Below are positions 18,743 to 51,164 of a stretch of DNA of 64,000 bases, piece by piece (within the stretch, counting starts at the first letter, position 1; each line of letters starts with the position of its first letter). This stretch comes from Falsiroseomonas bella (GTDB taxonomy: Bacteria > Pseudomonadota > Alphaproteobacteria > Acetobacterales > Acetobacteraceae), in NCBI RefSeq assembly GCF_003173615.1, contig NZ_QGNA01000001.1, positions 124,001 to 188,000 of the forward strand. The letters are read 5' to 3'. Position numbers and translations under genes: made by a program. The notes beneath the pieces were generated by a model. It worked only from the letters and a program-made list of their open reading frames with translations, was not told where the DNA came from and did no database searches.

Positions 18743-20722
18743 CTACTCCGGCGCGCCGGCGAAGCCGAGTTGCTTGCGCGTCTCCGTATCGGACCGCAGC
18801 GTCTGCCGGCGGGTCGCGGCGTTCATCGCCTCCGCGCGCCATTGCGCCACGCGCCGCAGCAGCGCGACGCCGCCGCCCGGCACCGCGCGCGCGACATGGC
18901 CGAGCCGGCCGCCGCCGAATTTCGCGAAGAGCTCGTCCTGCAGGCAGACGATCGCCTCGAAGCTGCCGGGATTGCCCTGCCGCGCGCCGCGGCCGATCAG
19001 CTGGCGGTCGATGCGCGGGCTGTCGTGATACTCCGCCACGATCACATGCAGCCCGCCGAGCTCCTCCACGCCTTCGCCGAGATGGATGTCGGTGCCGCGG
19101 CCGGCCATGTTGGTGGCGACGGTGATGCGGCCGCGCTCCCCGGCGCGGGCGACGATCTCCGCCTCCTCCTTGTCGAAGCGGGCGTTCAGCACGGTGTGCG
19201 CCAGGCCGCGCGCCGCGAGACGTTCCGAAAGCGCCTCCGACGCCTCGACGCTCTTCGTGCCGATCAGCACGGGGCGGCCCGTGGCGCTGACCCTGCGCGC
19301 GGCTTCGGCCACGGCGTCCCATTTCGATGCCATGTCGGCGAACAGCTTGGCGCCGAGATCCTGGCGGCGGCTGGGCTTGTTGGTGGGGATGCGCGCGATG
19401 GGCAGGCCGTAGACGGCGCGCAGCTCGCCCGCCAGCTCCCAGCCCGTGCCGGTCATGCCGGAGAGGCGCAGGTAGCGGCGGAAGAAGCGCTGGTAGGTGA
19501 TGCGGGCCAGCGTCTCCCGCCTTCCGGTCAGCTCGACGCCTTCCTTCTGCTCGATCAGCTGGTGCAGGCCGCGTTCCCAGGTGCGGCCTTCGGCGATGCG
19601 GCCGGTGTATTCGTCCACGATCTGCACCTTGCCCTCGGCCACGACGTATTGCTGGCCGCGGAGGAAGAGGTGCAGCGCGGACAGCGCCTGCTCGGCCAGC
19701 TCCTCTCGCGCGCGGCGGATGCCCCAGAGGCCGCCGCGCAGGCGCGTATCCTCCTCCACGCGCGCCTTGCCGGCTTCCGTGAGGCGGATCAGGCGGCGCG
19801 CGGGCAGCCGCTCGTAGTGCTGCCCTTCCGTCAGGCGGGAGGCGACTTCGAGCGCGAGCGCATAGGTCGCGGCCTCGTCGTCGCCCTCGACCTCGGCGGA
19901 GATGATCAGCGGCGTCCGCGCCTCATCCACCAGCACGCTGTCTGCCTCGTCCACGATGGCAAAGCCGAGGCCGCGCAGCAGCAGCGGCTGCGCGAAGCGG
20001 TCGCGCAGCATCGCCTGCACGGCGCGCCCGGCGCGGTCGCGGCGATGGCCGAGCGCGATGCGGTCGCGCAGGTAGTCGAAGGCAATCTCCTTGTTCGCGC
20101 CGTAGGTGATGTCGGCCTCATAGGCCTTGCGGCGCTCGTCCGGTTTCTGGCCGTGGCGGCAGATGCCCACCGTCAGGCCGAACAGCTCGTAGAGCGGGCG
20201 CACGATCTCGGCGTCGCGCTCGGCCAGGTAGTCGTTGACGGTGACGACATGCACGGGCAGGCCGGCGAGCGCGGCCGCGATGGCGGGCGGTCCGGCGGTG
20301 ATGGTCTTGCCCTCGCCCGTCGCCATCTCCGCGAGCCAGCCTTCCACCAGCGCGCGGCCGCCCATGAGCTGCACGCGGTAGTGGCGCTTGCCAAGGACGC
20401 GGCGGCTGCCCTCGCGCGCCAGGGCGAAGCAGCGCACCAGCAGGTCGTCGCGCAGGCCGTGGCGCAGGAAGAGCGGGCGCAGCGCCTGCGCGGCATCCTT
20501 CAGGCGCTCGTCGCTGAGCGGCTGCACCTCAGGCTCCGCCGCGTCCACGCGGTCGCAGAATTTCTCGAGCATGCGGCGGCGATGGCCGAGGCTGCGCGCC
20601 GTCACCTCGCCCCAGGCCATCAGCGCGCGATCGGCCAGGTTGGGATCGCGCTCCGCGCGTTCGGGATACGGCCCGGACTGGCGTTCCTCGGTGCGCCAGG
20701 GCTTGAGCCGTTCGTGGCTCAT
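18743..20722 (-). CDS. Short SecA-like translocation ATPase, probably dedicated to the adjacent exoprotein
   Basis: The protein has 659 residues from ATG at 20722, against about 900 for housekeeping SecA. Walker A is MATGEGKTITAG, Walker B and DEAD box IVDEADSVLVDEARTPLIIS, followed by QKEGVELTGRRETLARITYQ, RLSGMTGTG, TNKPSRRQDLG and TVATNMAGRGTDIHLGEGVEELGG. The last helicase motif is changed, QLIGRGARQGNPG instead of QLRGRSGRQGDPG. The C-terminal zinc motif for SecB and lipid contact is absent, and the end is short. An essential SecA is usually elsewhere in the chromosome, so this looks like an accessory SecA2-type copy. It is the last gene of the exoprotein locus. Confidence 0.9.
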   Translation of the reverse strand: MSHERLKPWRTEERQSGPYPERAERDPNLADRALMAWGEVTARSLGHRRRMLEKFCDRVDAAEPEVQPLSDERLKDAAQALRPLFLRHGLRDDLLVRCFALAREGSRRVLGKRHYRVQLMGGRALVEGWLAEMATGEGKTITAGPPAIAAALAGLPVHVVTVNDYLAERDAEIVRPLYELFGLTVGICRHGQKPDERRKAYEADITYGANKEIAFDYLRDRIALGHRRDRAGRAVQAMLRDRFAQPLLLRGLGFAIVDEADSVLVDEARTPLIISAEVEGDDEAATYALALEVASRLTEGQHYERLPARRLIRLTEAGKARVEEDTRLRGGLWGIRRAREELAEQALSALHLFLRGQQYVVAEGKVQIVDEYTGRIAEGRTWERGLHQLIEQKEGVELTGRRETLARITYQRFFRRYLRLSGMTGTGWELAGELRAVYGLPIARIPTNKPSRRQDLGAKLFADMASKWDAVAEAARRVSATGRPVLIGTKSVEASEALSERLAARGLAHTVLNARFDKEEAEIVARAGERGRITVATNMAGRGTDIHLGEGVEELGGLHVIVAEYHDSPRIDRQLIGRGARQGNPGSFEAIVCLQDELFAKFGGGRLGHVARAVPGGGVALLRRVAQWRAEAMNAATRRQTLRSDTETRKQLGFAGAPE

Positions 20723-20730
20723 TGTCAGGC

Positions 20731-20871
20731 GGCCCGCCGCTCTTCAGGCGGGCCGAGGGCGCGACGGGTTCCCATGCACGTTGCCGTGCAACGTGCATGG
20801 GGTCCCGGAATGCGCCCCGCGGCAAAGCCGCGAAGCCAAGGCCGCGGATGCGGCCGCCCGGCGTCTGAGGG
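20731..20871. repeat. Hairpin-rich intergenic block with second REP-like element
   Basis: The 152-bp gap between the M50-HlyD stop and the secA-like start holds three structures. The 16-mer CCCTCAGACGCCGGGC (20871-20856, minus strand) sits next to a GGCCGC/GCGGCC hairpin, as at 2113-2145. A 20-bp stem with a 3-base loop (20765-20784 and 20788-20807) has 18 Watson-Crick pairs and one G-U pair; its inner 14 pairs are perfect. A perfect 8-bp stem (20731-20738 and 20747-20754) lies 9 bases before the secA-like start. Together they may set the expression of secA relative to the upstream genes. Confidence 0.65.
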
Positions 20872-20874
20872 GCG

Positions 20875-23025
20875 TCATAACTGCAATCGCGCGAGCACCA
20901 ACTGGCGGCCGCGGCGCCACCATTGGGCGCCCAAGGGCTCCCAGCCATGGTCGAAGCGCACGAAGACGCGGCTGCCATAGGCCTCGCGCACCAGCCCGTC
21001 CGGCAGGGCGAGGTCGAACTGGAACAGGCGCTGCAGCGTGCGCGGCGCCTCGCCGCCCGAGGCCGGATCGGAGGCGAAGCGGCCGCCGCCTTCCACCGCG
21101 AGCGCACGGCTCGGCAGGCGGTCGGAGGCTGCCGGCACTTCCCGCACCAGGCGCGCCGAAAGCGGTTCCCAGACGCGGCCGGGCAGCTTGATCTCGACCT
21201 CGCCGAGGCGGTCGCGCACCAGCTCGATATCAGCCTGCGGCACCACCACGCGCACCAGGGATGCGCTCTCCGGCGTGATGAAGCCGATGACGTCGCCCCG
21301 CTTCACGTAGCGGCCGGGCAGGTCCTCGGCGCGCGGCACGCGGAAGGTGCCCTCGGCACCGCTGACCACCTCCAGCGCCGCGAGCTTCTCCTCGGCGCGC
21401 GCCAGTTCCTGCGTCTTGAGCGCGATCTCCTGCTGCGTCACGCCGGCCTGCACGCGGTTGGTGAACTGCTCGGAATCGAGGCGCGCGCGCAGCGCCTCGA
21501 TCTGGGTGCGCAGCACCGCGACCTGCGCGACGAGCTCGGGGTGCTCGGCCTCCACCAGCCGCATCCCCTTCCCGACATGGCTGCCGGGCGCGATGGCAAC
21601 CGCGCGGATGAAGCCGTCGCCGCCGGCGCGCACGATCGCCTCCTCCGGCAGCCAGACCACGCCTTCGGAGGTGGTGCGCAGCGGCGCCGGCGCGACGGCG
21701 AGCAGGAAGGCGGCCGCGGCAAGGCCGCCGAAGGTGATCGCCATGGCGCGGCCGCGCTTCAGCTGCAGCTTCGGGCTGGTGCCGACATGCCAGAAGGCCT
21801 TCGCCATCGGCCAGACCAGGCCCATGACGATGCCCGCGATCGCGACGAGCGCGCCGATGACGAAGAAGCGCTCCGCCACGAACAGCGCGATGCCGAACAA
21901 CACCACCATGCGCCAGGCGAAGGAGGCAGGGGCATAGACGGCGAACCAGAAGCGCTCCCACGGCGTCGCGCTCGGTTCCTCGACGTCGGCGCCGAACAGC
22001 CTGCGTTCGGCGATCCAGCCCCACCACTTGTTGGCGCGGCCGCCGAGGTTCGGGATCTCGAGCAGGTCGCAGGCGATGAAATAGCCATCCAGCCGCATCA
22101 GCGGGTTCAGGTTGAAGATCACGGTCGAGACGCCGGCGACCAGCATCACGTTGAAGCACAGCGCGCGCAGCAGCCCGGGTTCCAGCAGCGTCCAGGCGAT
22201 CATCGCCAGCGCCGCGATGAAGGCCTCCACGATCACGCCCGCCGCGCCTACGCCCGCGCGCCGCCACTTGCTGCGGAAGGCGGCGGAGGCGGTGCCGTCC
22301 ACATAGGGCACCGGGGCGAGCGCCATCAGCATCACGCCCATCTCGTGCACCTCGCCGCCGCCGGCGCGCGTGGCATAGGCATGCCCCATCTCGTGCAGCA
22401 GCTTGAGCACGGGGAAGACGATCGCCACCATCAGCAAGCCGTCGGGCGTGAGCACGCGGTCCGCGAGGTTCGCCGTCAGCTCCGGCCAGTGCATGCCGGC
22501 CAGCACCGCGCCGGCGCCGACCACCAGCAGCCAGAGCAGCGCACCGAATTTCGACATCAGCGGCTGCACGAAGGGCAGCGTGGCGAGCAGGAAGCGGTCC
22601 GGGTCCCAGAGCGGGAACTTCACGGCAAGCGGATTGCCCGCGCGGCCGAGCAGCTTGCGGCGCTTCTGCTTGCCGCGGCGCTGCAGCATCTCCTTCGGGT
22701 CGGCCGCGACATCGGTCTGCAGCAGGTCGGCGGAATGGAGCTGCGAGAGCAGGTTCACCACCGAGGTCTGCGTCGGTGCATCGTCGCCGAGCTGGTCCAC
22801 CAGCGCCTTCCACAGCTCATCCACTGTGCGCTTGCCGTCCATCATGCCGGCGAGCTGGTAGGCGGAGGGGCTGAAGCGGTGATAGCGCCCGGAGGCGTGG
22901 TCCTGCACCACGTACCAGGTGTGGCCGCGGTAGCGGTGCCGATGGATCTTCACATGCGGGCGCAGCCGCGGCTTGAGGCGCGCGACGCGGTGCCATTCGG
23001 GGCTGAGGAAGGCGTCGGCGGCCAT
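20875..23025 (-). CDS. PqqD-like / M50 site-2-type protease / HlyD-like fusion membrane protein
   Basis: The protein has 716 residues. Residues about 26-105 resemble the PqqD peptide-binding fold (YVVQDHASGRYHRFSPSAYQL, MDGKRTVDELW). Residues about 150-430 form a multipass M50 region with the zinc motif HEMGH (H211-H215) in a helix and NPLMRLDGYF with Asp313 as third ligand. After a last helix (about 435-455) comes a periplasmic HlyD-like part: barrel-sandwich half, coiled coil (QIEALRARL ... QEIALKTQELARAEEKLAALE) and second half. So it could recognise, cut and guide a substrate. It lies 23 bases after the GAF-HlyD gene. No classic single-function homologue fits its whole length. Confidence 0.87.
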   Translation of the reverse strand: MAADAFLSPEWHRVARLKPRLRPHVKIHRHRYRGHTWYVVQDHASGRYHRFSPSAYQLAGMMDGKRTVDELWKALVDQLGDDAPTQTSVVNLLSQLHSADLLQTDVAADPKEMLQRRGKQKRRKLLGRAGNPLAVKFPLWDPDRFLLATLPFVQPLMSKFGALLWLLVVGAGAVLAGMHWPELTANLADRVLTPDGLLMVAIVFPVLKLLHEMGHAYATRAGGGEVHEMGVMLMALAPVPYVDGTASAAFRSKWRRAGVGAAGVIVEAFIAALAMIAWTLLEPGLLRALCFNVMLVAGVSTVIFNLNPLMRLDGYFIACDLLEIPNLGGRANKWWGWIAERRLFGADVEEPSATPWERFWFAVYAPASFAWRMVVLFGIALFVAERFFVIGALVAIAGIVMGLVWPMAKAFWHVGTSPKLQLKRGRAMAITFGGLAAAAFLLAVAPAPLRTTSEGVVWLPEEAIVRAGGDGFIRAVAIAPGSHVGKGMRLVEAEHPELVAQVAVLRTQIEALRARLDSEQFTNRVQAGVTQQEIALKTQELARAEEKLAALEVVSGAEGTFRVPRAEDLPGRYVKRGDVIGFITPESASLVRVVVPQADIELVRDRLGEVEIKLPGRVWEPLSARLVREVPAASDRLPSRALAVEGGGRFASDPASGGEAPRTLQRLFQFDLALPDGLVREAYGSRVFVRFDHGWEPLGAQWWRRGRQLVLARLQL

Positions 23026-23048
23026 GGGTTATGTCCGCCGGCGCATGG

Positions 23049-24911: not shown

Positions 24912-24927
24912 CGCGCGCCCCCGCCGC

Positions 24928-45900: not shown

Positions 45901-48900
45901 GTGGATGTAGCCGGCATCGTTCAGCCAGAAGGAATAGGTGCGCGTGTTCACCGGATTGGGGTCGACCGCCTTGATGACCAGCGGCGTCCAGGTCGTCGTG
46001 GTGTGGTCGTAGCGCAGCCAGAATTCCACCGTGACGTCGCGGACGAGGTCGGTGCTGGCGCCGTCCGGCACGGTCGCGTATTCGGCGCCGGTGAAGGTCA
46101 GCGCGCCGCCGATCCTGCCCTCGGTCGCGAGCGGACCGGTGGTGCCGGCCCCGTCGATCGCGATCGCCTGCTGCGAATCCTCCACCTTGGTCAGCGCGAA
46201 GGCGAAGCGCGCGCTGGCGTCGGTGATGTGGACCTCGCCGTCCATCACCAGCGTGTAGCGGCCGGCGACATCGAGGGTCTGGGGACCGAAATCGTTGAAG
46301 TCCTGGTAGCGGATCTGGCGGCCGACCGGGTCGATCAGCCGGATATCGGTCCACCAGAGGGCGTTGCGCAGCGCGTTGAAGAAGACGCGGTCCCCCGCCT
46401 CCGCCTCGAAGCTGTAGAAGCTGGCGCTGCGGGCGGGCGTGTTGGTCACGGTCACCGTCTCGCCGAATGCGATCGGCGTCGCGGAGGCGAGGTCGGAGAG
46501 GCGGAACGCGAAGGCGCCGGTGCCGTCGCCGTCGCGATAGACCGTGAGGGTGTACTGGCCGGGCCCGGCGGTGAAGGGCAGGTCGGCGGAGCTGAAGGCG
46601 CGGCCGCCGACCAGCGTCGCGCCGGGCCGCGACAGCGTCCAGCGCAGGCTGCCGTCATTGGTGAGCGAATCGAAATAGAGCTGCGTCGCCTCCGCCAGCT
46701 CGAAGCTGTAGCGCGCGGCCTGGCCGGGAATCTCGATGCTGTCGGCCACGGAATCGCCAAGGGCCAGCGCCGCCGCCTTGTCCGTCACTTCCTCCAGGCG
46801 GAACTTGAAGACGGTGCCGGTGCCGGATTGCCAGACCTCGCCTTCCATCACCAGCGTGTAGGTGCCGTCGAAGGGCAGGTTGCGCGGGCCGTTGTCCTGG
46901 AAGTCGGTGTAGTAGATCTCACGGCCCCAGGGGTCGAACAGGCGCCAGTTGGTCCACCAGGTGTTGTTCTGCGTGGCGTTGAAGAAGATGCGGTCGCCCG
47001 CGCTGCCATCGAAGCGGAAGATCGCGGCGCCGTTGTTCGGCGTCGCGGTGTGCGTCACCTCCGCGCCATAGGCGATCTCGGTCGCCGCCGCGAAGTCGAG
47101 CAGCTGGAAGGCATAGGCGCCGGTGTTGGTGGTCGTCGCCCGGACCGTGAGGCGGTATTCGCCGCCGAGCGGCAGGTCGATGACCCGGTCGCCGTTCGAG
47201 GTCGGGTGGTCGGAGAACTCGACGCCGCGCGGCCCCTCGAGGGCGAAGCGCAGGTTGCCGTTGTTGGTCAGGCTGTCGAGGTAGAGGCGTGTCGGGCCGG
47301 CGAGCGTGAAGACGAAGGAATCCACCTCGCCCGCGACGGCGATGTTGCCGTCCACGCGGGCGCCGAGCGTCAGCGCATCGCCGGTGAAGGCCTCGACCGG
47401 CGTGTTGCCCTGGTCCACCAGGGTGAAGCCGAAATTGACCGGCCGCACATTGCCGATCAGCCCCTCGACGATGAGGGTGTAGCTGCCGGTCAGCAGCAGG
47501 CTGCGCGTGGCGTCGGTGAAGCTCTGGTCCACGAGCTCCCGCCCCGTGGGATCGAACAGCCGCCAGTAAAGGCCGGAGGAGGAGGTGGTGGCATCGAGCA
47601 GGATCTGGTCGCCGCGCTCCGCGTCGAAGCGGAACACCCGCGTCTCGCGCCCGAGGTTCGTCAGCGTGCCGTCGTTGCCGTTCGGACCGGAATCGACCAC
47701 CGCCGCGCCGCTGGCTTCGTCGAGCTTCCAGTAGGCGGCGAGCCCGGACTCATTGCCGGCGAGCGGCGCGCCCATCGCCGCCTGGATCTGCTCCGCCGTG
47801 CGCGCCACGTTCCAGACGCGCAGGTCGTCGATGGCGCCACGCCAGGGATAGTTGCCGCCGCCGTCGGTGCCGATGCGGAACTCGGCGCTGCTGTGGTTGA
47901 TGGGCTGGGTGTAGGCCAGCGTCGCGGCCTCCACGCCGTCGATGAACAGGCGGAGGTTGGCACCGTCATAGGTGCCGGCAACATGCGTCCAGTCATTCGC
48001 CGGCAGCAGGGCGCGCACCCGGACGTTGCTGTAGCTGTTGACGAAGAAGTTGATGTAGCCGTCGTTGGTGTAGTGCAGCCCGTAGCCGTCGTTCCAGTTG
48101 CCGGTGCTTGTCTTCATCGCCACCGAGGCCCATTGCGGCGCATCGGCGTCGCGCCGCACCCAGGCTTCCAACGTGAGCTGCGTCGGCTTCAGGGATGCGT
48201 CGTCGGGAACGCCGGCATAGGTGGTGGTGCCGATGCTCTGCAGCGCGCGGTTGGTCGCGCCTTCCGGATAGGTCAGCGGCGCGGCGTTCGGGCTGCGCAT
48301 CAGCGCCGCGGCGTAGCCCTGGTCGCCCAGCGTGCCCGACACCGCCGCGCCCGCGGCGATCTCCGTGGCATCCGCCAGGTCGAGCAGACGGAAGCCATAG
48401 CGGCCGGTGTTCGCACCGTTGCCCTGCACCGTCAGCGTGTAGTCGCCGGCGACGAGGTCGAGCAGCGGCGAGCCGCCGATGCCGCTTCCGTCCGACTGGT
48501 TGAACTGGCGGCTGTCCACCTCGACGCCGCGCGGGCCGGTCAGTGTCCAGGTCTTCCCGGAATCATTGGCCAGCGAATCGAAATAGAGCCGCGCGGCGGC
48601 GGCCAGGGTGAAGCTGTAGGAATCCTGGCGCCCCGGCTGCTCGATCTCGCCCATCACCAGTTCGCCGAGCACGAGCGGCGCGCTGTCGGTGGAGGCAAGA
48701 TGGAGCGTGAAGCCGTAGTCGATCGCGGCGCCCGCATTGTTCACCGGGCCTTCCAGCAGCAGCGTGTAGAGGCCGCCCGCGCCCAGCGTCAGCGTGTCCA
48801 CGTCGGTGAAGTTGCTGTTGGTGAACAGCACCTCGTCGCCGGGTCCGATCAGCCGCCACATCGGCGTTCCGGCGCCGGACAGCGCGGTGCGCTGGAAATA

Positions 48901-49617
48901 CACCCGGTCGCCGGCGGTCGCGGTGAACTGGAAGCTGTCGGTGAAGTCCGCCTCGGTCAGCGCGCCGGTGACGTTCTCGCCATAGGTCACCTGGCGGCTC
49001 TGCTGCATGTCGAGCAGGCGGAAGGCGTAGTCGCCGGTCGCCGCGCCGTTGCCGTCCACGCTCAGCAGGTAGTCGCCCGGCAGCAGCGTCATCACCGGCG
49101 AGCCGCCGACATTGTTCGTGAAGTTGTTGCTGTCGGAGAGGTCGAAGCGGCGGCCCGACACCTCGCTGCCGCGCGGCCCGGTCAACGACCAGAGGATGTC
49201 GCTGCGGTTGGCCAGGCTGTCGAAGACGACGCGCTTCGCCTCGGTCAGGGTGAAGCTGAAGCGGTCCGTCTCGCCCGGCACGTCGAGCGTGCCGGCGATC
49301 ACCGGCGCGCTGATCGGATCGCCGGCCTGGGTGTGGATGGCGATGTCGTAGTCGCTGGCGTCGTTCGAGCCGCCGAGATCCACCGTGGGCGCCGGCGTGC
49401 CGAGGGAGGAGGTGAGCGCGGTGGTGCCGAGCAGGTCTAGATCGGCCGAGAGCAGCACGCGCGGCTCGAGGGATTCGAGCAACAGGCGCCGATCGGCGCG
49501 CGGCTTCGCGCTCCCCCGCGCCGGCTTGCGGCCATCCTGGCCGCCGCGCCAACGGCGCCTGTTTCGGACATCCTGTCCGGGTTGTTCCAGAGGCTCGTTG
49601 AAGACATCCCGCGCCAT
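24928..49617 (-). CDS. Giant LEPR-XLL mosaic exoprotein with embedded subtilisin domain (about 8,229 residues)
   Basis: A single uninterrupted frame of 24.7 kb is read from ATG at 49617 (MARDVFNEPLEQPGQDV); the frame is open to a TTG at 49710, but the later ATG leaves a normal short basic leader. Order, in approximate residues: LEPR-XLL motif LEPRVLL 50-56; ten alternating pairs of PPC-like domains 96-3103 with LamG domains at 480-640, 1190-1357 and 1630-1800 and an L-type lectin-like domain at 2230-2467; ten CARDB 3126-4389; four Calx-beta 4389-4799; one more CARDB; carboxypeptidase-regulatory and NEW3-like modules; a Cys-rich and poly-Gly module 5486-5660; Ig-like domains 6076-6616; three SdrD-B; subtilisin domain 6952-7282 (Asp6986, His7029, Ser7214); one SdrD-B; seven cadherin-like repeats 7442-8155. 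I see no RTX repeats, beta-barrel or sortase signal. Likely an exported surface, adhesion or matrix protein. Confidence 0.93.
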   Translation of the reverse strand: MARDVFNEPLEQPGQDVRNRRRWRGGQDGRKPARGSAKPRADRRLLLESLEPRVLLSADLDLLGTTALTSSLGTPAPTVDLGGSNDASDYDIAIHTQAGDPISAPVIAGTLDVPGETDRFSFTLTEAKRVVFDSLANRSDILWSLTGPRGSEVSGRRFDLSDSNNFTNNVGGSPVMTLLPGDYLLSVDGNGAATGDYAFRLLDMQQSRQVTYGENVTGALTEADFTDSFQFTATAGDRVYFQRTALSGAGTPMWRLIGPGDEVLFTNSNFTDVDTLTLGAGGLYTLLLEGPVNNAGAAIDYGFTLHLASTDSAPLVLGELVMGEIEQPGRQDSYSFTLAAAARLYFDSLANDSGKTWTLTGPRGVEVDSRQFNQSDGSGIGGSPLLDLVAGDYTLTVQGNGANTGRYGFRLLDLADATEIAAGAAVSGTLGDQGYAAALMRSPNAAPLTYPEGATNRALQSIGTTTYAGVPDDASLKPTQLTLEAWVRRDADAPQWASVAMKTSTGNWNDGYGLHYTNDGYINFFVNSYSNVRVRALLPANDWTHVAGTYDGANLRLFIDGVEAATLAYTQPINHSSAEFRIGTDGGGNYPWRGAIDDLRVWNVARTAEQIQAAMGAPLAGNESGLAAYWKLDEASGAAVVDSGPNGNDGTLTNLGRETRVFRFDAERGDQILLDATTSSSGLYWRLFDPTGRELVDQSFTDATRSLLLTGSYTLIVEGLIGNVRPVNFGFTLVDQGNTPVEAFTGDALTLGARVDGNIAVAGEVDSFVFTLAGPTRLYLDSLTNNGNLRFALEGPRGVEFSDHPTSNGDRVIDLPLGGEYRLTVRATTTNTGAYAFQLLDFAAATEIAYGAEVTHTATPNNGAAIFRFDGSAGDRIFFNATQNNTWWTNWRLFDPWGREIYYTDFQDNGPRNLPFDGTYTLVMEGEVWQSGTGTVFKFRLEEVTDKAAALALGDSVADSIEIPGQAARYSFELAEATQLYFDSLTNDGSLRWTLSRPGATLVGGRAFSSADLPFTAGPGQYTLTVYRDGDGTGAFAFRLSDLASATPIAFGETVTVTNTPARSASFYSFEAEAGDRVFFNALRNALWWTDIRLIDPVGRQIRYQDFNDFGPQTLDVAGRYTLVMDGEVHITDASARFAFALTKVEDSQQAIAIDGAGTTGPLATEGRIGGALTFTGAEYATVPDGASTDLVRDVTVEFWLRYDHTTTTWTPLVIKAVDPNPVNTRTYSFWLNDAGYIHFTTTDASGQQELNSATGSVARNEWVHVAGIIDRTTGQMRLLLNGAEAASRTIRTTDAVTHDGPLYVGGAGNTARLFGTIDELRLWSVVRTDQQIQDSMNAALVGDEEGLELRLPMDEATDPATLADLGPAGTDATVVDARQGLPGIIMGRIPSPGGVSRYSFTLAQDALLYFDTLTNNDAATVTVTGPGGIGFSRNLRNGDSHEFGGSSPVFAAIAGDYTITVDGTGDSTTPFAFRLLDLKAAPTVAYDTVVTSPPAVGDRTDMFRLDATAGDRVYFDLLSSSRADWQASWRVFDPLGRQVLGLTSLNDVETLTLSMTGAYTVLVEGRTAYPEPFSYSFQLRKVENESTPAVFGTNPQPGPLWTEGRLDGGVQFTGADAIAIDGAGTNQTTNLTMEAWVRLDEFSDTWSAIFYKGNGDNGHRSYSLWVNNSGALYLGTRDGSNEQGTQTANGVMQLGVWTHVAAVIDRSSGQLRIVVNGEDRATGAVRAGPAVSTAEPLLIGRTSETSTGFDFLRGAVDEVRLWNVARTTDEIDDNKAVALTAPQAGLVMRLALDEEDGDAAADTSGNGNAGTLERFNADGITGRIDHVGQRDSYSFTLASSSRLLLDILSPYNGNFTLTLTGPRGTEFSGWRFDNTDSGALGGSRLLDLPAGDYTVTVDGAGETTGWYNFRLLDLAAATPVTVGTSFSGALVPGSATQLFAFDGTAGDRVYLDHLGFTNSTYVRLYDPTGRLVLGQTYIDSLRSQGAVTLAATGTYVIAVEGHPGEGTRQTFSLIVDPIIDQDFPLTLGASVSGAIESRGQVDRYSFTVAAETFVIFDALTDTPNLSWTLSTPGYTPVSGRGWQGSDSENLDGSPAIRLLPGTYTLTVDATNDNMPGYGFRLLEMAGATSMALDASVTGTLSPGAQTAMYRFDGTAGTRLRFDRESLSAGSPKVRVLDERGRVVFGRAEFADSDLFVLPIDGAYTVLIEGRRYDGGDINFGFALRSDAQPAWNGETTQDFGAEVAASDGEASGIPYVLANYQGPAATLVSDGNGGNALRLTSATVGLHRNTVGFTSTADGPHDSVTVSFDARMIVSNAGRNQSGDGLGFALLPTRLYGPAGSAPNFGEEPNIAGALGIGFDIVNNGEVNNNHVSLHFNGGEIGEYAVDIAALDLAGGQFFGVDVSVQRAVGGSRVTVTLTPPGGGAAITPINNIFVGGLFLETSRVAFGARNGGWSAHHDIDNVAVATTASTEVPLTFALDQPTGSAEVLAAAGITTLPVGGVFRHQITLAEDATVLMDWQGTDWQPVWTLTGPDGVVASRRADNSDSYDGFDLQPMTLKAGTYTVTVSALPNASSTYRFRLLDLDNATALTPGTAVTGTSINPGNEVDLYSFTASAGDRFFFDATNTGWDTYWRLFGPNGQLVTWRNHTYSDAGPFSVPLDGTYVLAIEGRYYNTGANNYSFNLRPVVDETTALDLNTRVDATIAGPGSVDRYTFTLGSARLLYLDTFTNRSDIRYYLDGPNGERIGWQYFSNSDLNQDGAAFRAQPGAWTLTVYGDGEANGAYSFRLLDLTDPAVATAITPGTPVSATLDPYNQTDAYRFSGIAGQRLYFDVQQQPSAYWRLVDPTGRQLFREGFSDRGIVTLPATGEYTLLIEGYPYNTGSAAYAFNLQPIADSSAAATLGALVEGEIAHAGQTASFTFTLAETKRIFVDTVGNAVETAWWADQLRWSLTGPNGFVTERSWTNGNGSQFGAGNPLLTLPPGDYTLAVRSTVDRTGAFSFRLIDVAAAEDLILGSPVSGALTPGSEADLYKFEATAGDRFYFDAQQWGSGNTYWRLIGPYGEVRFAQGISEDEDTLTLTETGTYLLMIDGHPADLGSSPTYRFGVYANPLQAPVRISSLEAVPSPDLVVQNVAVAPVGGAVESGGQITVSWRDANIGALPADATWSDRVIVRRVDTGEILASVVLPFTPAGGALAAGGFVDRQATLTLPPGNRGAGELTVQVTTDLTNALDEENANGTGESNNATQVALTSALAPYPDLVVQSVAATPPSGWAPGDAVTVSWTTRNDGTAAVQTDVTERLILRNATTGQQMLLTTLTLAASPGAPLGAGETRARSTSVTWPGGISSTGVIEFIVTTDTTDLVFEANAGGNGEANNASTTSIVSAPDLRVSGLTLVNPSPESGDTLTIQWTDENGGNAATPQGWVDRVRVVNTTTNQVLLDTTVAYDQGALGPLASGATAARSVSFTLPHGAAGAGNLSITVTADQATNGATQITEALPAGNAEGNNSASISRSVALRAYPDLLPSDLVAPDTGRGEGTIQVSWTVANQGTGATDASAWTDLVVLSDDAVFGDADDVVIGTHQRSGALAAGAEYDVLLDVSLPPRLEGNYFLFVRTDSGLAVLEPDTRADNVTAARPIAITSPFADLTVTEVTAPATVSSGGQITVEWTVANQGDGPTSSGIWRDRVYLSTDGTLDGADTLLGTYVRNAAPLAAGAETQGTLTATLPANLAGQRYVIVRTDALGEIYEKGLTGNNTGVSTAPITLQSPDLTVSDIDVPETALPGQQRNVSWTVTNQGFGDAFGSWTDRILLVQDGQPGSTVLGHVTRSGGLAAGASYTASATINWPVVADGDWRIRIESDYANQLFEAGAEANNATTSADAVAVTHPDITIPSVTAPPTATSAQTITVSWTMRNDGTAAIPGGWTERVFLSPTQEITNASRFVGERSGTPGMAAGAEVNRSLDITLPIDLSGTWYVIVSGDHWNQVNEGLSEGNNRGVSAAIAVTQAALPDLVVENLALNGAPALESGAVATVSWTVRNTGAGDAAASFYDRIVVLNETTGETLVNTVLFRDAAALGAIAAGTGAPRQYQFTLPNGERAVGDLKVTVTTDTYNSAYEGAGGSAAETNNAATITRASVMADYADLQVQNLAVVPATPRSGDLLTITWDSANIGDAPAGPYAERLQVINQTTGETLHDQYLSYPGFGGAANAPLPAGESLARQANVRLPDGVRSVGDILVRVTTDAFSQIFERSGGVSGEGNNVASLTRAATLGAYADLVISDISAPTNAGAGKTVQLSYTVTNTGTAAATGAWTEQIFLSTDEVLGGDTLLRSDYVQNQSIAAGASVVRTVSVTMPAFGEGARWFAVRTDAANAVFELNEQNNAALDDVAVELDPSLTIGVSVNPISEAAGGAASTGTVSRSGDISQALVVNLATSRPELVLPPTVTIAAGAASASFAIGVTDNTLVDGSRTATLTASASGYADGQANLGINDNDVAALTVSIPPAVGEGEGQILATITRNTPTNAALDVTLGVDKSWKATVPTGFTFAVGQSSIQIPVTLIDDTIIEGARDVRITAQAAGHATGSALMTVLDNDIPNIELSLSKTAVSEGAGAAGTVLTIRRDIAANQPLELILLGAPTQMRFPNRVTIAANEHEVHVPIAIEDNALADGNRLVPLRVQIADSVLKVAVPGTQQQIGVQILDDDGPSLSVTLAHNVIGESGQTTGTVRRNTGTTGDLVVTLTSDDTTEATVPATVTILDGQDSATFTVTGVIDGVSDGTRPVTLLASAGGFNAGAAGLQVTDRDLPDLQVTSIALPTSVKTGQAVTGTFTVANRGLGATSGSWVDRVYISTDVTLGADDVLVATHAGEPLDVNQAYQRTVNFLAGSLTGTVYMIVVSDPNGALEEISNGNNQSVGSLQVNPAYRATVSADIEAAPAGTRIPLTGNIFDPDAPTPGDAATADTNPALMFKPVTIQVTSANGNTRTLTTVTDINGNFTVDFVPLPGEAGRYTIAADHPGVTQRTPQDSFVLMAMKATSFPGSVDLLPNTPESFDFTIANLGDVPLTSLAIAVEGAPPWLDLDIDLADVIAADGSVTGSVTGSVQLTANQDLQTSGRLVFVLTTAEGVTLRVPLSVSVTPLTPRLVAQPGFLNAGMLRGEQTLVSFEVTNNGGTETGPLTLVLPNEPWLAAATPTSIASLGVGEKTTVTLRLNPGEDLPLGLYKGTVVLNGTRTTLSTAYEFRAISEAVGDARIKVEDEYTYFAEGNPGLAGAAVKLIDPYSYQVIASGIADEDGFVNFTGIAEGKYMLSVSADKHDSVQTAFEIKPGILNETTAFLHRQVVTYKWTVVPIEVEDRYKIVLESVFETEVPMPVVTTDTPRLMPLIVPGETTQMEITLTNHGLIQAEQVQIKVPNDPDLIITPLVDVIDVLPAKSSVTIPITIRLREGSPLAAQMASNSSAMVIPTGDGIMPASALDMPITAQGWGNAIAKCLGIEAVYTYECQNGQWVSVPHKLDAVFCAEDILGAGGSAKDFLKDWIKDPKKANPANLVCDAIGMILQCAGADDCTQAIVSTICGVGLGALTGGWAGAGAGLGGALDDILACLCSLDWGIGGDGSTGGGGGGGGGGGWGIYGGGIGTPWSVPVIWDGGGVSCGPGSSDATVLDADGNLSPTAAGVCAQVRLKLEQEAVITRTAFLGTLELDNGTAGTLEDIQLILDIRDENGNVANDKFFVIGPDGENMTGGPEFWSLAAGATGALKYTFLPTVDAAMDAPTRYSIGGRLVYKDGGNVVDVPLLSSKITVYPEARLQLDYFWQRDVFGDDPFTDPIEPSEPFALGLQVTNLGKGDANRMTITSAQPEIIENEKGLLIDFEIISSQVGAAAAQPSLTVDLGRIAAGETKTAQWNMISSLQGKFIDYKASFEHLDAFGGLRTSLIESVNIHELIRQVEVNHPASDDIPDYLVNDLPDDEHLPDTLYLSTGGKMPVTVAQNVQVTGGLTRTLTADVQAGWTYLKVADPGAGYRLTQVLRSDGTALPIGDMVWRTDRTFRPGEPGATYENLLHLLDRNSTGSYTLVYAVDDKVPPAILSLEAPAAVVTSAVGQLDVTFTEPLDLGTFTVADLTLTRNGTALDLSAATITQVSTSVYRIGNLGALTTPDGNYALTVDSRSMADGAGNAGTNARSVSWAMSAASVVVASIQTVEPDPRNIAVGALEVEFSRTIDPATFGVADIALTRDGEAVELDGRVVVTQLSDTRFRINGLGTLTGTAGTYALTVFASGVGEAGSGNAGTGQLTETWTTDTTAPVVLDLEDVATNPRNTVILSLDVTFSEAIDPASFTAADLTLTRNGGANLIVADDIELTQLSETVWRIAGFNWVSGLAGDYVLTVDGAGLADLAGNAGTGSASSSWRMDIGAPPAATNLRITPDRGVADDDELTNTQAFSILGDLAEEGLTVRFYDLTTKTDLGVAVVTGQTFEGAIALNSPGKHDIRVRTVDVAGNTTDAVLSVFIDVSAPAVTAIQQVTPNPRTTGVATLDVTLSEAVDAASFDAQDIVLTRDGAALDLSGVTVALLSGTTYRISGLEAVTGEPGDYELTVAGAGMLDNAGNAGTGSATASWTRAGSLPTGITGRVFEDFDANAVFGTSPFGTTDVGLEGWTVFLDLDGDSVLDDGEASTTTAANGTYAFTGLTAGSYAIVAELRTGWSSTGPVSNRIEVTLLAEQTLTNANFARFELGTIGGVKFNDLDGDGIRDGGEEGLAGVTLFVDRDGDNVLDDGEASTVTAADGSYAFTGLAYGTVRIGEVARDGWARTTPPASMRVISGYENATVAIGNVRTVSISGMKFEDLNGNGLREDGEGGVEGWTIFIDANGDGVLQETEASVLTGADGTYSFTGLLPGTYIIAEVQRTGWVQTTPTGSAAGSGIAVSLAGSDVELTMEGCSCGGTWSLPDGSDIVDLGALSTRESRDITGLTSALQDARFTGLTGSGVRTVLIDTGIDVDHSFFGPDTDGNGIADRIVYQWDFADNDADASDIAKGHGSHVASLIASGDSRYGGVAQGTDLIVLKVFSDSGRGTFANVEKALQWVIANAEAWNVGVINMSLGDNGNWNTTIPRYGLGDEFATLAAMDVITVAAAGNFYNQYNAMGVAYPAADPAVLSVGAVWSGDFGGPWTVATGATDYTTGADRIAAFSQRDDELLDIMAPGARFNGANATGGVQTMQGTSQAAGFVSGAAALSQQLAQQVLGRNLSTAEFAELLKRTGDMILDGDDENDNVKNTGLSFPRIQFTRLFEEILTFTSLPDDGGAGGGAGGGTGGGTTRPQQAAAPGVHSVTLAAGESRADVSFGNFKLATMTGVVFLDADADGQRDAGEDGVADRTVFLDANGNATLDENETEALTDAAGAFDLGLLGPGAYAVRMVGVPDWVVTTPQPVAGTSGSGQAIALQIGTRLAPTGGELAALPDSATTDEDTTQVIDVTANDGGTAPLTVTLPQAQSAQGAVLTVLADGRVHYNPKIAPTLQALLPGQTATDSFEYTVTDATGATATTTVTVTVEGTNDEPKARPNSYTTHEDRAMILPVLLNDTDADAGQSLSLVGLPAFSTRGAALVALPDGRVSYDPRVSAELQQIKFGEELTDSFTYRISDGAGGEAEATVTVLVTGRRDPFVPFSTSTTEDAEILVAVPDVTVTSVGSISAQTAAVSLVGGKILYDPRNTPRVQRLAEGETMQDGINFSGFTALGEPVTGRLSIMLTGVNDAPVAQRVNAETDARTVAEIDAKVGGADRDNGAVLTLDGVAATSRLGASIAIVDGKAVYDPTGAPALQALLFGETALDSFSYTVRDEHGATASATVYVTVAGLGDTSHLIPLAPGSTDEDTVLRMAVGSWPLVSVSPVTGLGAQVSIVNGKVNYDPRRSAAIQALDAGDSAADLVTVTLRDNAGKLRQGQIAVTVNGVNDAPVAIADAASARADQVTEVAVLANDRDGDASAVLSITGLAASSAGGATLSVVNGKVAYDPTGVAAFQALPVGATANDSFSYTVVDEHGASSTATVQIRVVGRNNPPVATADAAAATSRAPIVIDVLANDSDVDTGAVLTLLEAQTVSRFGAAVSINPDGTLTYDPTASATLTALAPGAVRTDRFTYTITDEQGARRSAWVTVTVTGAAPAPAALALPASTPATKRVAAAEPEEEEFVVDLAAEFSGFAAPVQPAGGVSSWQVGFVAEGTGTEDPNRDIEVVIGQVA
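25150..27290 (-). repeat. Seven cadherin-like repeats at the C-terminal end of the giant protein
   Basis: About 100-residue repeats each carry the frame (T/D)EDT..., VNDGKVxYDP-type strand, ALxxGExxxDSFxYTVxDxxG and a closing VTVxG(x)NDAP turn, for example LPAGQTATDSFEYTV-like and VGATANDSFSYTVVDEHGA. These VCBS/cadherin-like units are usual in secreted adhesins and probably bind calcium at the Asp-rich turns. A final stretch of about 75 residues follows (PEEEEFVVDLAAEFSG ... DIEVVIGQVA) with an acidic patch and no known anchor; it could hold a late export or retention signal. Confidence 0.82.
27770..28760 (-). other. Embedded subtilisin-like (S8) protease domain
   Basis: The triad is complete: Asp6986 in VLIDTGIDVDHS (codon 28660-28662), His7029 in GHGSHVASLIAS (codon 28531-28533) and Ser7214 in MQGTSQAAGFVSGAAAL (codon 27976-27978). 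The oxyanion-hole Asn lies in TVAAAGNFYNQYN. The domain is inserted between the third and fourth SdrD-B repeats and followed by a Gly-rich linker. It should be active on folding and may cut the giant protein itself, partner proteins or external polymers. Confidence 0.92.
28830..31390 (-). repeat. Bacterial Ig-like and SdrD-B domain block of the giant protein
   Basis: Four Ig-like domains share the frame LDVTFSEAIDPASFTAADLTLTRNG ... TYRISGL ... GDYxLTVxxxGxxDxAGNAGTG, with one different Ig domain (TPDRGVADDDELTNTQ) before the last. Three SdrD-B domains follow, with GxKFxDLNGNGxRDxGExGxxGxTxFxDxNxDGxLDxGE and TxADGTYxFTGLxxGTY. The Asp-rich loops look calcium-binding. A short CSC pair (EGCSCGGTWS) sits just before the protease domain. 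Confidence 0.8.
32640..33160 (-). other. Cys-rich and poly-glycine module in the middle of the giant protein
   Basis: About eleven cysteines cluster between CLGIEAVYTYECQNGQW and GVCAQVRLKLE, while the long beta-domain arrays seem nearly free of Cys. The segment LKDWIKDPKKANPANLVCDAIG to LGALTGGWAGAGAGLGGALDDILACLCS is helical and partly hydrophobic, followed by a run of eleven Gly and GGWGIYGGGIG. This suggests a disulfide-bonded or membrane-inserting module, different from the rest. The poly-Gly codons are a triplet-repeat tract prone to slippage. Confidence 0.75.
36450..40240 (-). repeat. Array of ten CARDB-type repeats in the giant protein
   Basis: Units of about 120-130 residues begin (P/A)DLxVxxLxxP and continue VSWTVxNxGTxxAxGxWTDRxxLS, GxLAAGxxxxxxxxxxLPxxxxGxxYxxVxTDxxNxVxExxExNNxxxxxxxV. 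Ten stand in tandem; an eleventh (PDLQVTSIALPTSV) follows the Calx-beta block at 34860-35210. CARDB domains are Ig-like folds of large secreted proteins and probably act as spacers or binding modules. Confidence 0.82.
40310..49330 (-). repeat. Ten alternating A/B pairs of PPC-like beta domains with inserted lectin-type domains
   Basis: Type A units read GxxDRYSFTLAExxxLYFDSLTN ... WTLTGPRG ... LxPGDYTLTVDGxGxxTGxYxFRLLDLAxATxI; type B units read xYRFDGTAGDRVYFD ... WRLFDPxGR ... LxxTGTYTLLVEG. They alternate strictly through ten pairs (about 300 residues each). The first LamG domain sits inside pair 2, the next two around pair 5, and an L-type lectin-like domain (DSVTVSFDARMIVSN ... GDGLGFALLP ... 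ALGIGFDIVNNG) between pairs 7 and 8. This pattern implies repeated duplication of a two-domain unit. Confidence 0.83.
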
Positions 49618-49739
49618 CGGATCACCCCGCACACAGAGAACCACGGCGGCGACACCGACGACCGCGGGCCGGGCTTCCCCTCCGCGGTGCATCCATGACG
49701 CCGTATTCAATCAGGGAGGAAAAACCACGGTAAACGAGA

Positions 49740-49857
49740 CGTCAATTGATGACTGCAGGTTCGCTGGATGTTTTTCTTTCGCGTGCTTGCAGCGACAGAT
49801 GCGGAACGGCATCAGGCGGCAATAACCGGCGAAACGCTCCGAAAAAAAATTACGGAG
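49740..49857 (-). promoter_or_regulatory. AT-rich control region upstream of the giant exoprotein gene
   Basis: The 243-bp gap between the adaptor stop (49861) and the exoprotein start (49617) includes a stretch clearly richer in A and T than anything else in the window. On the minus strand it has a TTGACG (49745-49740) with only a poor -10, a GTCA-ATTGA-TGAC inverted repeat (49741-49753) and a CTCCG/CGGAG stem closing an eight-T run (49837-49857) just after the adaptor stop. It probably contains the promoter or a regulator site. No exact start site can be fixed. Confidence 0.5.
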
Positions 49858-49860
49858 AAT

Positions 49861-50718
49861 TTAGCTTGGCGCGCGGAAGCGAATGCGGCAGCGCAGTCCC
49901 GCCGGCAGCGCGAGATCGGGGTTCGGCAGGCGCAGCCGCACGCCGAAGGTGCCGCTGGCCGCGTCCATCACCCGGTCCACGACGGAAACCTCCGCCGGAT
50001 GCGCGCCGCCGACCGGCGCCTCCGGCAGTACCGTCGCGACATCGCCGGGCTTGACCTGGCCAAAATAGGAAACCGGCAGGAACACCTCGACGTGGATCGG
50101 GTCGATCTGCGCGAGGGTGAGCAGTTGTGCCTGCTCGTGGAAATACTCGCCGGCAGCGAGGTGACGCTCCACCACGATGCCGTCCACCGGGCTCAGGATG
50201 CGCCGCTGGGCCACCTGTTCCTCGGCGCGCAGCAGCTCGGCGCGCGCCGCCTGCAGGTTCATCTGCGCGTCGCGCAGCGTCAGCGCCGCCACGCGGGCCT
50301 CGGTGGCGGCCTCGTCGTATTCGCGCTCGCTGACCGCGCTGCTGGCGCGCAGGCGCTGCAGCCGTCCGGCGCGGCGCTCGGCGTATTCGGCGCGCTGCTC
50401 GGCGCTGGCCACCGGCGCGTCGTTCTCCGCGCGGACGCGGGCGAGAGCGAGGTTCGCCTCCTCCACCTCCGCGGCGAGCTGCGCCACGACCTGGCCCTGC
50501 CGCACCACGTCGCCGCGGTTGACCTGCACGCTGCGGATCAGCCCGGTGACGGAGGCGCCGAGCTTCACGCGCTGGGCGGCGTCCATCAGGCAGTCGAACT
50601 CGCCCTCGGCGAGCCGCGGCGCTGGCTGCGCCGAGGCGCCGCCGGCCAGGGCGAACAGCAGCGGCAGCGCGGCGAGGTGGAGCGGGCGGGGCGCGTAACC
50701 GTTGCGATGCATGCTCAT
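49861..50718 (-). CDS. Periplasmic adaptor (membrane-fusion) protein, RND/HlyD type
   Basis: The protein has 285 residues from ATG at 50718 (a second ATG at 50712 is possible); the longer open frame upstream lacks homology. A signal peptide ends near GGASAQPAP. A barrel-sandwich half (KLGASVTGLIRSVQVNRGDVVRQGQVVAQL) is followed by a coiled-coil hairpin (about 90-170), the second half (RRILSPVDGIVVERHLAAGEYF) and a beta-barrel. Such adaptors link an inner-membrane transporter to an outer-membrane channel; neither partner is next to it. Its place before the giant gene suggests it belongs to that export system. Confidence 0.85.
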   Translation of the reverse strand: MSMHRNGYAPRPLHLAALPLLFALAGGASAQPAPRLAEGEFDCLMDAAQRVKLGASVTGLIRSVQVNRGDVVRQGQVVAQLAAEVEEANLALARVRAENDAPVASAEQRAEYAERRAGRLQRLRASSAVSEREYDEAATEARVAALTLRDAQMNLQAARAELLRAEEQVAQRRILSPVDGIVVERHLAAGEYFHEQAQLLTLAQIDPIHVEVFLPVSYFGQVKPGDVATVLPEAPVGGAHPAEVSVVDRVMDAASGTFGVRLRLPNPDLALPAGLRCRIRFRAPS

Positions 50719-50888
50719 CCACACAAGCGGCGCGTGCGGCGCCGATCGCGCCGAGCATCGTCCATCGGTGGGGAAATGCAACGCCCCGCCGCCGCTTGCC
50801 GCTGTGCCGCGCCGCCGATATCGTCCGCGCAACCCCGCGTTGACGCCCGGACCCCCGGCAGCGATCGCGCGGCGCAAGGAGCATCGAG

Positions 50889-51164
50889 ATGGCGCAGCCG
50901 CCGACCCAGCCGGAGATGAAGCTCGACACCTCGCAGCTGAAGAGCAGCTATTGCAACGTTTGCAGCGCCACCAGCACGCGCGAGGAAGTCGTGCTCACCT
51001 TCGGCGTCAACCAGAACTGGGACCTGCAGCAGCAGCAGGGCGGCGGCGCGATGGACGTGCAGCTGCTTCACCGGATCATCATGAGCCCGGTCGCGGCCAA
51101 GCGCTTCCACGACCTGCTGACGCGCCTGATGTCTGAGCACGAGGCGCGCCACGGCGCGCTTTGA
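50889..51164 (+). CDS. DUF3467 family protein
   Basis: The protein has 91 residues from ATG at 50889 with an AAGGAG site. KSSYCNVCSATSTREEVVLTFGVNQNW and LLHRIIMSPVAAKRFHDLL match DUF3467, a small family of unknown function. A Gln-rich loop (DLQQQQGGGAMD) is present. It is divergent to the adaptor gene over a 170-bp gap. Confidence 0.85.
   Translation: MAQPPTQPEMKLDTSQLKSSYCNVCSATSTREEVVLTFGVNQNWDLQQQQGGGAMDVQLLHRIIMSPVAAKRFHDLLTRLMSEHEARHGAL

Follow-up and report, generated by a model that had tools for sequence, protein, structure and literature searches.

A cluster of minus-strand genes in Falsiroseomonas bella pairs a giant LEPR-XLL protein with a SecA-like ATPase, a PqqD-M50-HlyD fusion (M50-HlyD below), a GAF-HlyD fusion and a free HlyD-type adaptor, and among the genomes sampled, giants bearing the same N-terminal tag are found almost exclusively in those that also carry M50-HlyD. 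The cluster lies in a window of 64,000 nucleotides (contig NZ_QGNA01000001.1, positions 124,001 to 188,000, forward strand), and all coordinates given here are positions in that window. From gene content and recurrence we put at about 0.7 the probability that the locus is a dedicated export-and-processing unit, directed by an N-terminal tag, for one giant protein. What is new is the cargo link, the pairing of LEPR-tagged giants with the module; as far as we found, both the role of the tag and the cargo of the module had been open.

A first-pass annotation had placed five genes together on the minus strand. Profile scans and reading frames recover all five at the positions claimed for them, with exactly the 16 bases between the giant and GAF-HlyD genes and the 23 bases between the GAF-HlyD and M50-HlyD genes that it had counted:

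18743..20722, minus strand: SecA-like ATPase, 659 residues (SecA_DEAD 334.5, P-loop_SecA 170, SecA_PP_bind 81 bits)
20875..23025, minus strand: PqqD-M50-HlyD fusion, 716 residues (PqqD 29.8 bits, cut-off 23.4; HlyD_3 29.2 bits)
23049..24911, minus strand: GAF-HlyD fusion, 620 residues (HlyD_3 71.6, HlyD_D23 67.3, GAF_3 30.8 bits)
24928..49617, minus strand: giant LEPR-XLL protein, about 8,229 residues from the proposed ATG (domain and frame evidence)
49444..49479, minus strand: LEPR-XLL tag LESLEPRVLLSA, about residue 47 from the proposed start (NF012209 over cut-off)
49861..50718, minus strand: periplasmic adaptor of the HlyD/RND_mfp type, 285 residues (RND_mfp 141.1 bits, cut-off 94.9; HlyD_D23 76 bits)

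The arrangement recurs in many genomes and is beyond chance. Loci with a secondary SecA_DEAD protein and M50/HlyD, GAF/HlyD and HlyD proteins were described by Kamneva, Poudel and Ward in 2015 (PMC4452313), and the window has this composition, with an extra SecA_DEAD protein that lacks the wing-scaffold and with M50/HlyD, GAF/HlyD and HlyD adaptor genes as its neighbours. By gene content, the machine of the window is a member of that module. The first-pass annotation had called the system undescribed, which does not hold for the machine and stands for its cargo, which no paper that we found names.

Co-occurrence of tagged giants with the module

Three overlapping samples were searched, comprising 398 genomes of Pseudomonadota (phylum sample), 385 alphaproteobacterial genomes (class sample) and 59 relatives, with the F. 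bella genome counted in each. A phylum-sample genome was scored as M50-HlyD positive with profile A1 at E<=1e-20; a LEPR giant is a frame of 1,500 codons or longer in which NF012209 exceeds its cut-off. M50-HlyD was present in 92 of the 398 phylum-sample genomes and LEPR giants in 55; 54 of these 55 were M50-HlyD positive, as against 38 of the 343 others, and 305 genomes had neither. The single genome with a LEPR giant only, G605, is 86% complete. The class sample has M50-HlyD in 24 of 385 genomes, including all eight of those with LEPR giants, and the seven relatives with M50-HlyD (of 59) are the same seven that have LEPR frames of at least 1,500 codons; an eighth, G012, has a weak LEPR match in a 732-codon frame. 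Within the genus, four of 15 genomes (F. bella included) carry both M50-HlyD and a LEPR giant and 11 carry neither, a patchiness that suggests gain or loss on short time scales. In one genome, G029, two modules are present along with two LEPR giants.

The two elements are also close together. At least 43 of the 75 LEPR giants in the phylum sample share a contig with M50-HlyD, and in 37 of these 43 the gap is below 10 kb; the 75 M50-HlyD places compared are a subset of the full list, and the same-contig counts are thus lower bounds. Recurrence of the neighbourhood in other genomes, which the first-pass annotation had offered as the check on its proposal, is borne out by these counts.

As a control we took 80 phylum-sample genomes without M50-HlyD. 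Six of them (G473, G454, G558, G501, G490 and G509) have VCBS domains in frames no shorter than 1,500 codons, with no LEPR match in these six at E<=0.1. Giants of the VCBS kind in M50-HlyD-negative genomes led us to reject the idea that giants in general accompany the module. Among the control genomes of the LEPR-XLL search, Deinobacterium chartae has a match over the cut-off, and the tag may reach beyond the Pseudomonadota.

Machinery branches and tag subtypes

In the first 11 neighbourhoods, eight of them from six genus or family genomes and three from named contigs, M50-HlyD adjoins a GAF-HlyD-like gene in every case. HExxH is invariant in 11 of 11 M50-HlyD proteins compared, which also have the NPxxxxDGY-type motif, both within hydrophobic segments. 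A SecA-like gene is present in eight of the 11; the three without it are G032, G034a and the branch-2 locus G034b. Profiles built from these neighbourhoods were used to map 72 loci, with 40 phylum-sample and 20 class-sample loci hand-chosen from longer lists; 71 loci with an M50-HlyD frame above 250 bits were kept, and G334, with interrupted frames, was dropped. All 71 have the HExxH and P-x(3-4)-D[GA]Y motifs.

The loci fall into two branches, assigned by whether M50-HlyD scores above or below 550 bits. A quick tree built from 69 of the 71 M50-HlyD proteins (the fragmentary G378 and G486 were left out) agrees and separates the two branches with 100% SH-aLRT support. Gene counts refer to fetched stretches of 7-60 kb, and genes lying farther off in the genome escape them. 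Counted in this way, the 46 branch-1 loci have SecA-like genes in 41, GAF-HlyD in 43, adaptors in 41 and OEP genes in 10 (this last with a profile from only four sequences), and the 25 branch-2 loci have GAF-HlyD and adaptors in 24 each and SecA-like genes in none. DUF3467 genes are found in 20 of the 46 branch-1 loci and none of the 25 branch-2 loci, and are a recurring branch-1 accessory. Three of the 41 SecA-like genes (G420, G426 and G378) are weak or fragmentary, and G489, one of the five branch-1 loci without SecA-like, stops at a contig end. With G489 set aside, SecA presence on the tree needs three changes, consistent with one gain and two losses.

The tag differs between the branches. 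We compared 20 giants per branch, hand-chosen from same-contig pairs; a strict pattern found the tag in 14 of the 20 branch-1 giants and looser rules found the remaining six. Two positions ahead of the L of LEPR, 20 of 20 branch-1 tags but only one of 20 branch-2 tags have an acidic residue; seven positions after that L, Asp is found in one of 20 and 20 of 20, respectively. The consensus is E-x-L-E-x-R-x-L-L-S-[AG] in branch 1 and A-L-E-P-R-x-[LM]-[FL]-D-[GA]-A in branch 2. A tag subtype that follows the machinery branch fits cognate recognition, and it lends support to the earlier suggestion that LEPR-XLL marks proteins for a dedicated route.

Both types are found on plasmids. Profiles detect a giant gene, GAF-HlyD, M50-HlyD and SecA-like on plasmids of Alisedimentitalea, Pseudosulfitobacter and Methylosinus, two of these plasmids having DUF3467 and one TolC. 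Two of these giants have recognisable tags, FDTLEPRVLLNADV and LETFEPRVLLSADL; in the third no tag was seen within 150 residues of the annotated start. Escherichia coli plasmids (NZ_CP146666.1 and NZ_CP060066.1; L256-L258) carry a branch-2-like set consisting of TolC, an adaptor and two HlyD-family genes, with no SecA. Their giant has 4,459 residues, Ig-like domains and FALESRQLFDGAAL (LESRQLFDGAA) near its N-terminus, and their M50-HlyD protein is nearest to branch-2 members, at 40% identity. The plasmid-type M50-HlyD gene is present in 24 of 5,426 E. coli genomes.

Proposed export route and rival explanations

Three further features of the giant and the M50-HlyD protein bear on the function of the locus:

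22720..22914, minus strand: PqqD-like domain, residues 38-102 of M50-HlyD (Pfam PqqD, 7.6e-07)
22381..22395, minus strand: HExxH zinc motif of the M50 core, residues 211-215 (motif)
27862..28683, minus strand: subtilase (S8) domain in the giant (Peptidase_S8 120 bits; DTG, GHGSH and GTS motifs present)

The open reading frame of the giant spans 24928-49710 (8,260 residues), reaching 49710 with a TTG; its likely start is the ATG at 49617, because the protein is conserved from MARD onward in the close relative G007. The giant scores 21.5 bits with NCBIfam NF012209 on its N-terminal piece and 25.9 bits in the genome search (cut-off 17), which makes it a member of the LEPR-XLL proteins (LEPR-8K); that entry, as displayed, names no machinery. 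Around the tag the N-terminus is basic and not Sec-like, and hydropathy shows neither a Sec-type hydrophobic core near the tag nor a Sec signal peptide. Pfam places Laminin_G_3, PPC and CARDB domains in the giant, then SdrD_B, the subtilase and cadherin/VCBS; Planc_extracel (PF07595) stays at 19.8 bits, below its gathering cut-off of 25.5. With seemingly complete subtilase motifs near its C-terminal end, the giant may combine the roles of exoprotease and adhesin. At the C-termini of the giants, [ILVM]xW occurs in 15 of 27 branch-1 proteins versus 9% of internal windows, and [FLIM][ST]xQL in six of nine branch-2 proteins versus 0.6%, both motifs having been chosen post hoc; they may serve as a second signal, for sorting or for anchoring. 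The C-terminus of the F. bella giant has neither motif.

The M50-HlyD protein consists, in order, of a PqqD-like N-terminus, an intramembrane metalloprotease core, a last transmembrane segment and a periplasmic adaptor part, with six hydrophobic segments between residues 156 and 453 by hydropathy. A partner motif, NPLxRxDGY, lies near residues 307-315. Pfam M50 does not match the protein, although it matches relatives, and NF041824 (daptide_HExxH) scores 163.8 bits, under its cut-off of 300; the M50 assignment is based on this sub-cut-off match together with the motifs. An AlphaFold2 model (mean pLDDT 80.6, pTM 0.51, 11 rows) has three strands and three helices at residues 25-98, an order that we take to match PqqD-type domains.

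The SecA-like protein has both motor halves and the preprotein cross-linking domain, with GEGKT and VDEAD present, and in alignments it covers residues 18-605 of SecA chains that run to about 780-840 residues. It ends at the point where the wing, two-helix-finger and C-terminal region of SecA would follow. It is an extra copy: a second SecA is encoded in a longer frame elsewhere in the genome, with 45% identity over residues 55-563. Across the loci, G[ED]GK[TS] is found in 37 of 41 SecA-like proteins and a DExD-type motif in 39 of 41; one or both are absent in G378, G531, G420 and G426. A gene of the Methylosinus sp. C49 plasmid (L255:22204-24120) annotated as 'prepilin peptidase' scores 840 bits to the SecA-like profile, and the label is likely a database misnaming.

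We infer that the giant is the cargo of the module, and propose the following for how its tag is read and cut, where the chain crosses the envelope and what drives it. The giant would be recognised through its basic N-terminal stretch and LEPR-XLL tag, not through a Sec signal peptide. PqqD-type domains read the leader peptides of ribosomally synthesized and post-translationally modified peptides (RiPPs), and the PqqD-like domain of M50-HlyD is the likely tag reader. The M50 core in the inner membrane would then cut the tag or its neighbourhood; both reading and cutting are suggested by the PqqD-M50 arrangement because it resembles that of RiPP maturation proteases. GAF-HlyD, M50-HlyD and the free adaptor would together form a periplasmic conduit docking on a TolC-type outer-membrane channel. 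No TolC-type gene is among the window locus genes scanned, and the channel for this module would be encoded elsewhere in the genome, where OEP genes occur on contigs C8 and C12; its use by the module is presumed. In branch 1 the SecA-like ATPase, without wing and two-helix finger, may feed or pull the chain as an optional motor. An envelope-spanning export path is the simplest reading of the gene set, because adaptor domains are present in three module proteins, TolC-type genes adjoin the module elsewhere (at G032, G034a, Zoogloeaceae and Betaproteobacteria loci and in Methylosinus) and the giant has no Sec signal by hydropathy.

We would give even odds to a wider claim, that the module represents a general secretion pathway for giants of Gram-negative bacteria, directed by an N-terminal tag and distinct from types I, II and V, in which a fusion of leader reader, intramembrane protease and HlyD replaces the ABC transporter and in which an old split separates a SecA-powered branch (LEPRxLLS-type tags) from a SecA-free branch (LEPRxxFDGA-type tags).

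Several observations weigh against a dedicated, tag-directed unit. The Fisher p of 2e-40 for the association of giants with M50-HlyD overstates its certainty, as the genomes are not independent. When no limit is set on frame length, 72 of the 86 genomes with an over-cut-off LEPR match are M50-HlyD positive and 14 are not; in 13 of these 14 the match is only in frames below 1,500 codons, a range in which a 24-residue model is expected to give chance matches. No LEPR giant was found by our criterion in 38 of the 92 M50-HlyD genomes, 18 of which have an over-cut-off match in a shorter frame and 20 none. This lack may be partly one of sensitivity, because NF012209 scores branch-2 tags poorly; untagged cargo is also possible. 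A pattern search of the fetched class-sample stretches gave no LEPR giant at nine branch-2 loci (G382, G353, G281, G125, G412, G181, G407, G334 and G329a); G281, G407 and G329 have a LEPR giant elsewhere in the genome, whereas in G412 and G334 it is frames of 898 and 820 codons, lying about 6-9 kb away from M50-HlyD, that give LEPR matches over the cut-off. In the relative G014 the adaptor, GAF-HlyD, M50-HlyD and SecA-like genes are consecutive (L030, contig C109) and the LEPR giant is on another contig (L207, C35), with no giant remnant recognised between adaptor and GAF-HlyD.

The component assignments have weak points of the same kind. Among the best 50 of 395 Foldseek matches to the M50-HlyD model there are only HlyD-type adaptors (MexA/MacA/AcrA-type), so that the PqqD and M50 parts rest on sequence. 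The two branch-2 M50-HlyD proteins that were scanned gave no Pfam PqqD match at E<=0.01, and in that of L022 the domain scores only below the cut-off. None of the 25 branch-2 loci has a SecA-like gene in its fetched stretch, nor do two branch-1 lineages. The first-pass annotation had suggested that the SecA-like protein could supply the energy; because LEPR giants are kept where it is absent, it is not a universal source, and it is conceivable as a branch-1 motor. At SecA-less loci another energy source would have to move the chain. The correlation of tag subtype with branch may reflect whole loci being inherited together and not recognition, and a published LEPR giant of Vibrio has C-terminal RTX and serralysin domains like a type I cargo.

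Three other explanations were weighed. The giant might cross the inner membrane through SecYEG, driven by the housekeeping SecA or the SecA-like motor, with M50 and HlyD proteins acting later in tag removal, outer-membrane passage or surface retention. The retention of giants at SecA-less loci agrees with this, as does the preprotein cross-linking domain of the SecA-like protein. The wing and two-helix finger act at SecYEG, however, and the SecA-like protein ends before both; the N-terminus of the giant, moreover, shows no Sec signal peptide by hydropathy, and we regard this route as unlikely. Poorer still are the prospects of a sensing and proteolysis device, made of a GAF sensor and a site-2-type protease, that regulates the giant genes and exports nothing. 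GAF domains and M50 proteases are often signalling-related. In favour, too, is the suggestion in PMC4452313 that the GAF protein is regulatory. Against it, all three module proteins of the window have periplasmic adaptor domains, and several loci have TolC-type genes next to the module. Least credible is mere co-transfer of tag and module as neighbours on mobile segments with no cargo relation, which the patchy distribution in the genus, the plasmid loci and the transfer of loci proposed in the same paper would favour, but which sits badly with the joint presence of both in 54 of 55 genomes, with G014 keeping both though the giant has left the operon, and with tag subtypes that follow the machinery branch.

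An export-and-processing unit for a tagged giant is best set beside the module of Kamneva et al. In PMC4452313 a possible type-I-like machine is proposed, with SecA as the ATPase and the M50 protein as the pore, the loss of the wing-scaffold from the SecA-like protein is stated, the broader biological role is called 'completely unknown' and the cargo is left unnamed; its main text has no occurrence of 'LEPR', 'giant' or 'DUF3467'. The two share a SecA-like protein without wing-scaffold, HlyD/M50, GAF/HlyD and HlyD/biotin_lipoyl proteins, OEP in some loci and the lack of an ABC transporter; what differs here is the LEPR giant as likely cargo, the tag subtypes, HExxH intact at every locus kept, the SecA-free sister branch and DUF3467. 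Our search of the open-access literature found no paper linking the LEPR-XLL tag with the module. If tag and module form one pathway, some of the largest bacterial proteins would possess a dedicated exporter and, with it, an N-terminal tag that is short and can be mutated. Clear predictions follow from the link, and since a SecA-free relative occurs in E. coli plasmids and the SecA type is reported in Methylobacterium extorquens AM1 (PMC4452313), these are testable in laboratory bacteria.

Type I systems share with the module periplasmic adaptors of the HlyD class, presumably a TolC-type channel, and large repetitive exoprotein cargo; they differ from it in that the tag here is N-terminal, a protease-adaptor fusion sits in the inner membrane and no RTX repeats were found in the giant. 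No HlyB-type ABC transporter was found in the module, the only part of the genome searched for one, and the giant has no HemolysinCabind match (Pfam, E 0.001) and no C-terminal RTX-type signal, as the first-pass annotation had maintained for both the exporter and the RTX-like C-terminus. Because a search of the module gave neither an ABC transporter nor an RTX signal, we do not file it as a type I system; the whole, with its cargo, tag and sister branch, is a type-I-like export variant. Residues 19-408 of M50-HlyD align along positions 1-370 of the 379 of NF041824, one of the daptide and epipeptide M50 maturation proteases (NF041824, NF058609), but the window protein is below the family cut-off and has an extra HlyD part, and its neighbour and likely cargo is a giant instead of a small peptide. 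With the accessory SecA2 of mycobacteria, Listeria and Bacillus the SecA-like protein shares the motor core and its status as a second genome copy, but it is shorter, is tied to HlyD/M50 partners and scores below the cut-offs of four SecA2 models (TIGR04397 546 versus 1085, TIGR03714 460.8 versus 930, TIGR04221 440.8 versus 725 and NF012136 373.8 versus 1100).

Accessory and neighbouring genes

GAF-HlyD comprises a cytosolic GAF region, one transmembrane segment (residues 353-376, by hydropathy) and a periplasmic HlyD part. Pfam shows one GAF stretch, at about residues 186-320, and not the two that the first-pass annotation had read. The free adaptor begins with a sequence resembling a signal peptide; frame 49850-50929, tried as the adaptor, was rejected in favour of 49861-50718. 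A PF00529 search of the F. bella genome gave no match, and the family was not used as a marker.

A gene divergent from the adaptor had been overlooked in the first-pass annotation:

50889..51164, plus strand: DUF3467 protein, 91 residues (PF11950 56.4 bits, cut-off 25)

A sequence search of the PDB with this protein gave E 1.3 or worse, and the idea of a SecB-like chaperone carries no claim here.

Further genes accompany the module at single loci. In G004 a JmjC/cupin-type gene (L027:508-1695, JmjC_2 81.6 bits) adjoins GAF-HlyD and is possibly a giant-modifying enzyme. A SapC family gene is annotated beside the giant in Alisedimentitalea (L261 1558-2001; NZ_CP123586.1 183557-184354), and a 253-residue gene between M50-HlyD and SecA-like in G029 (L020:12134-12895) is, by eye, presumably SapC-like. 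The nearest named relatives of the M50-HlyD gene of the window are from Roseomonas, at 93% and 82% identity, and an AtzE-type amidase gene lies downstream of the SecA-like gene.

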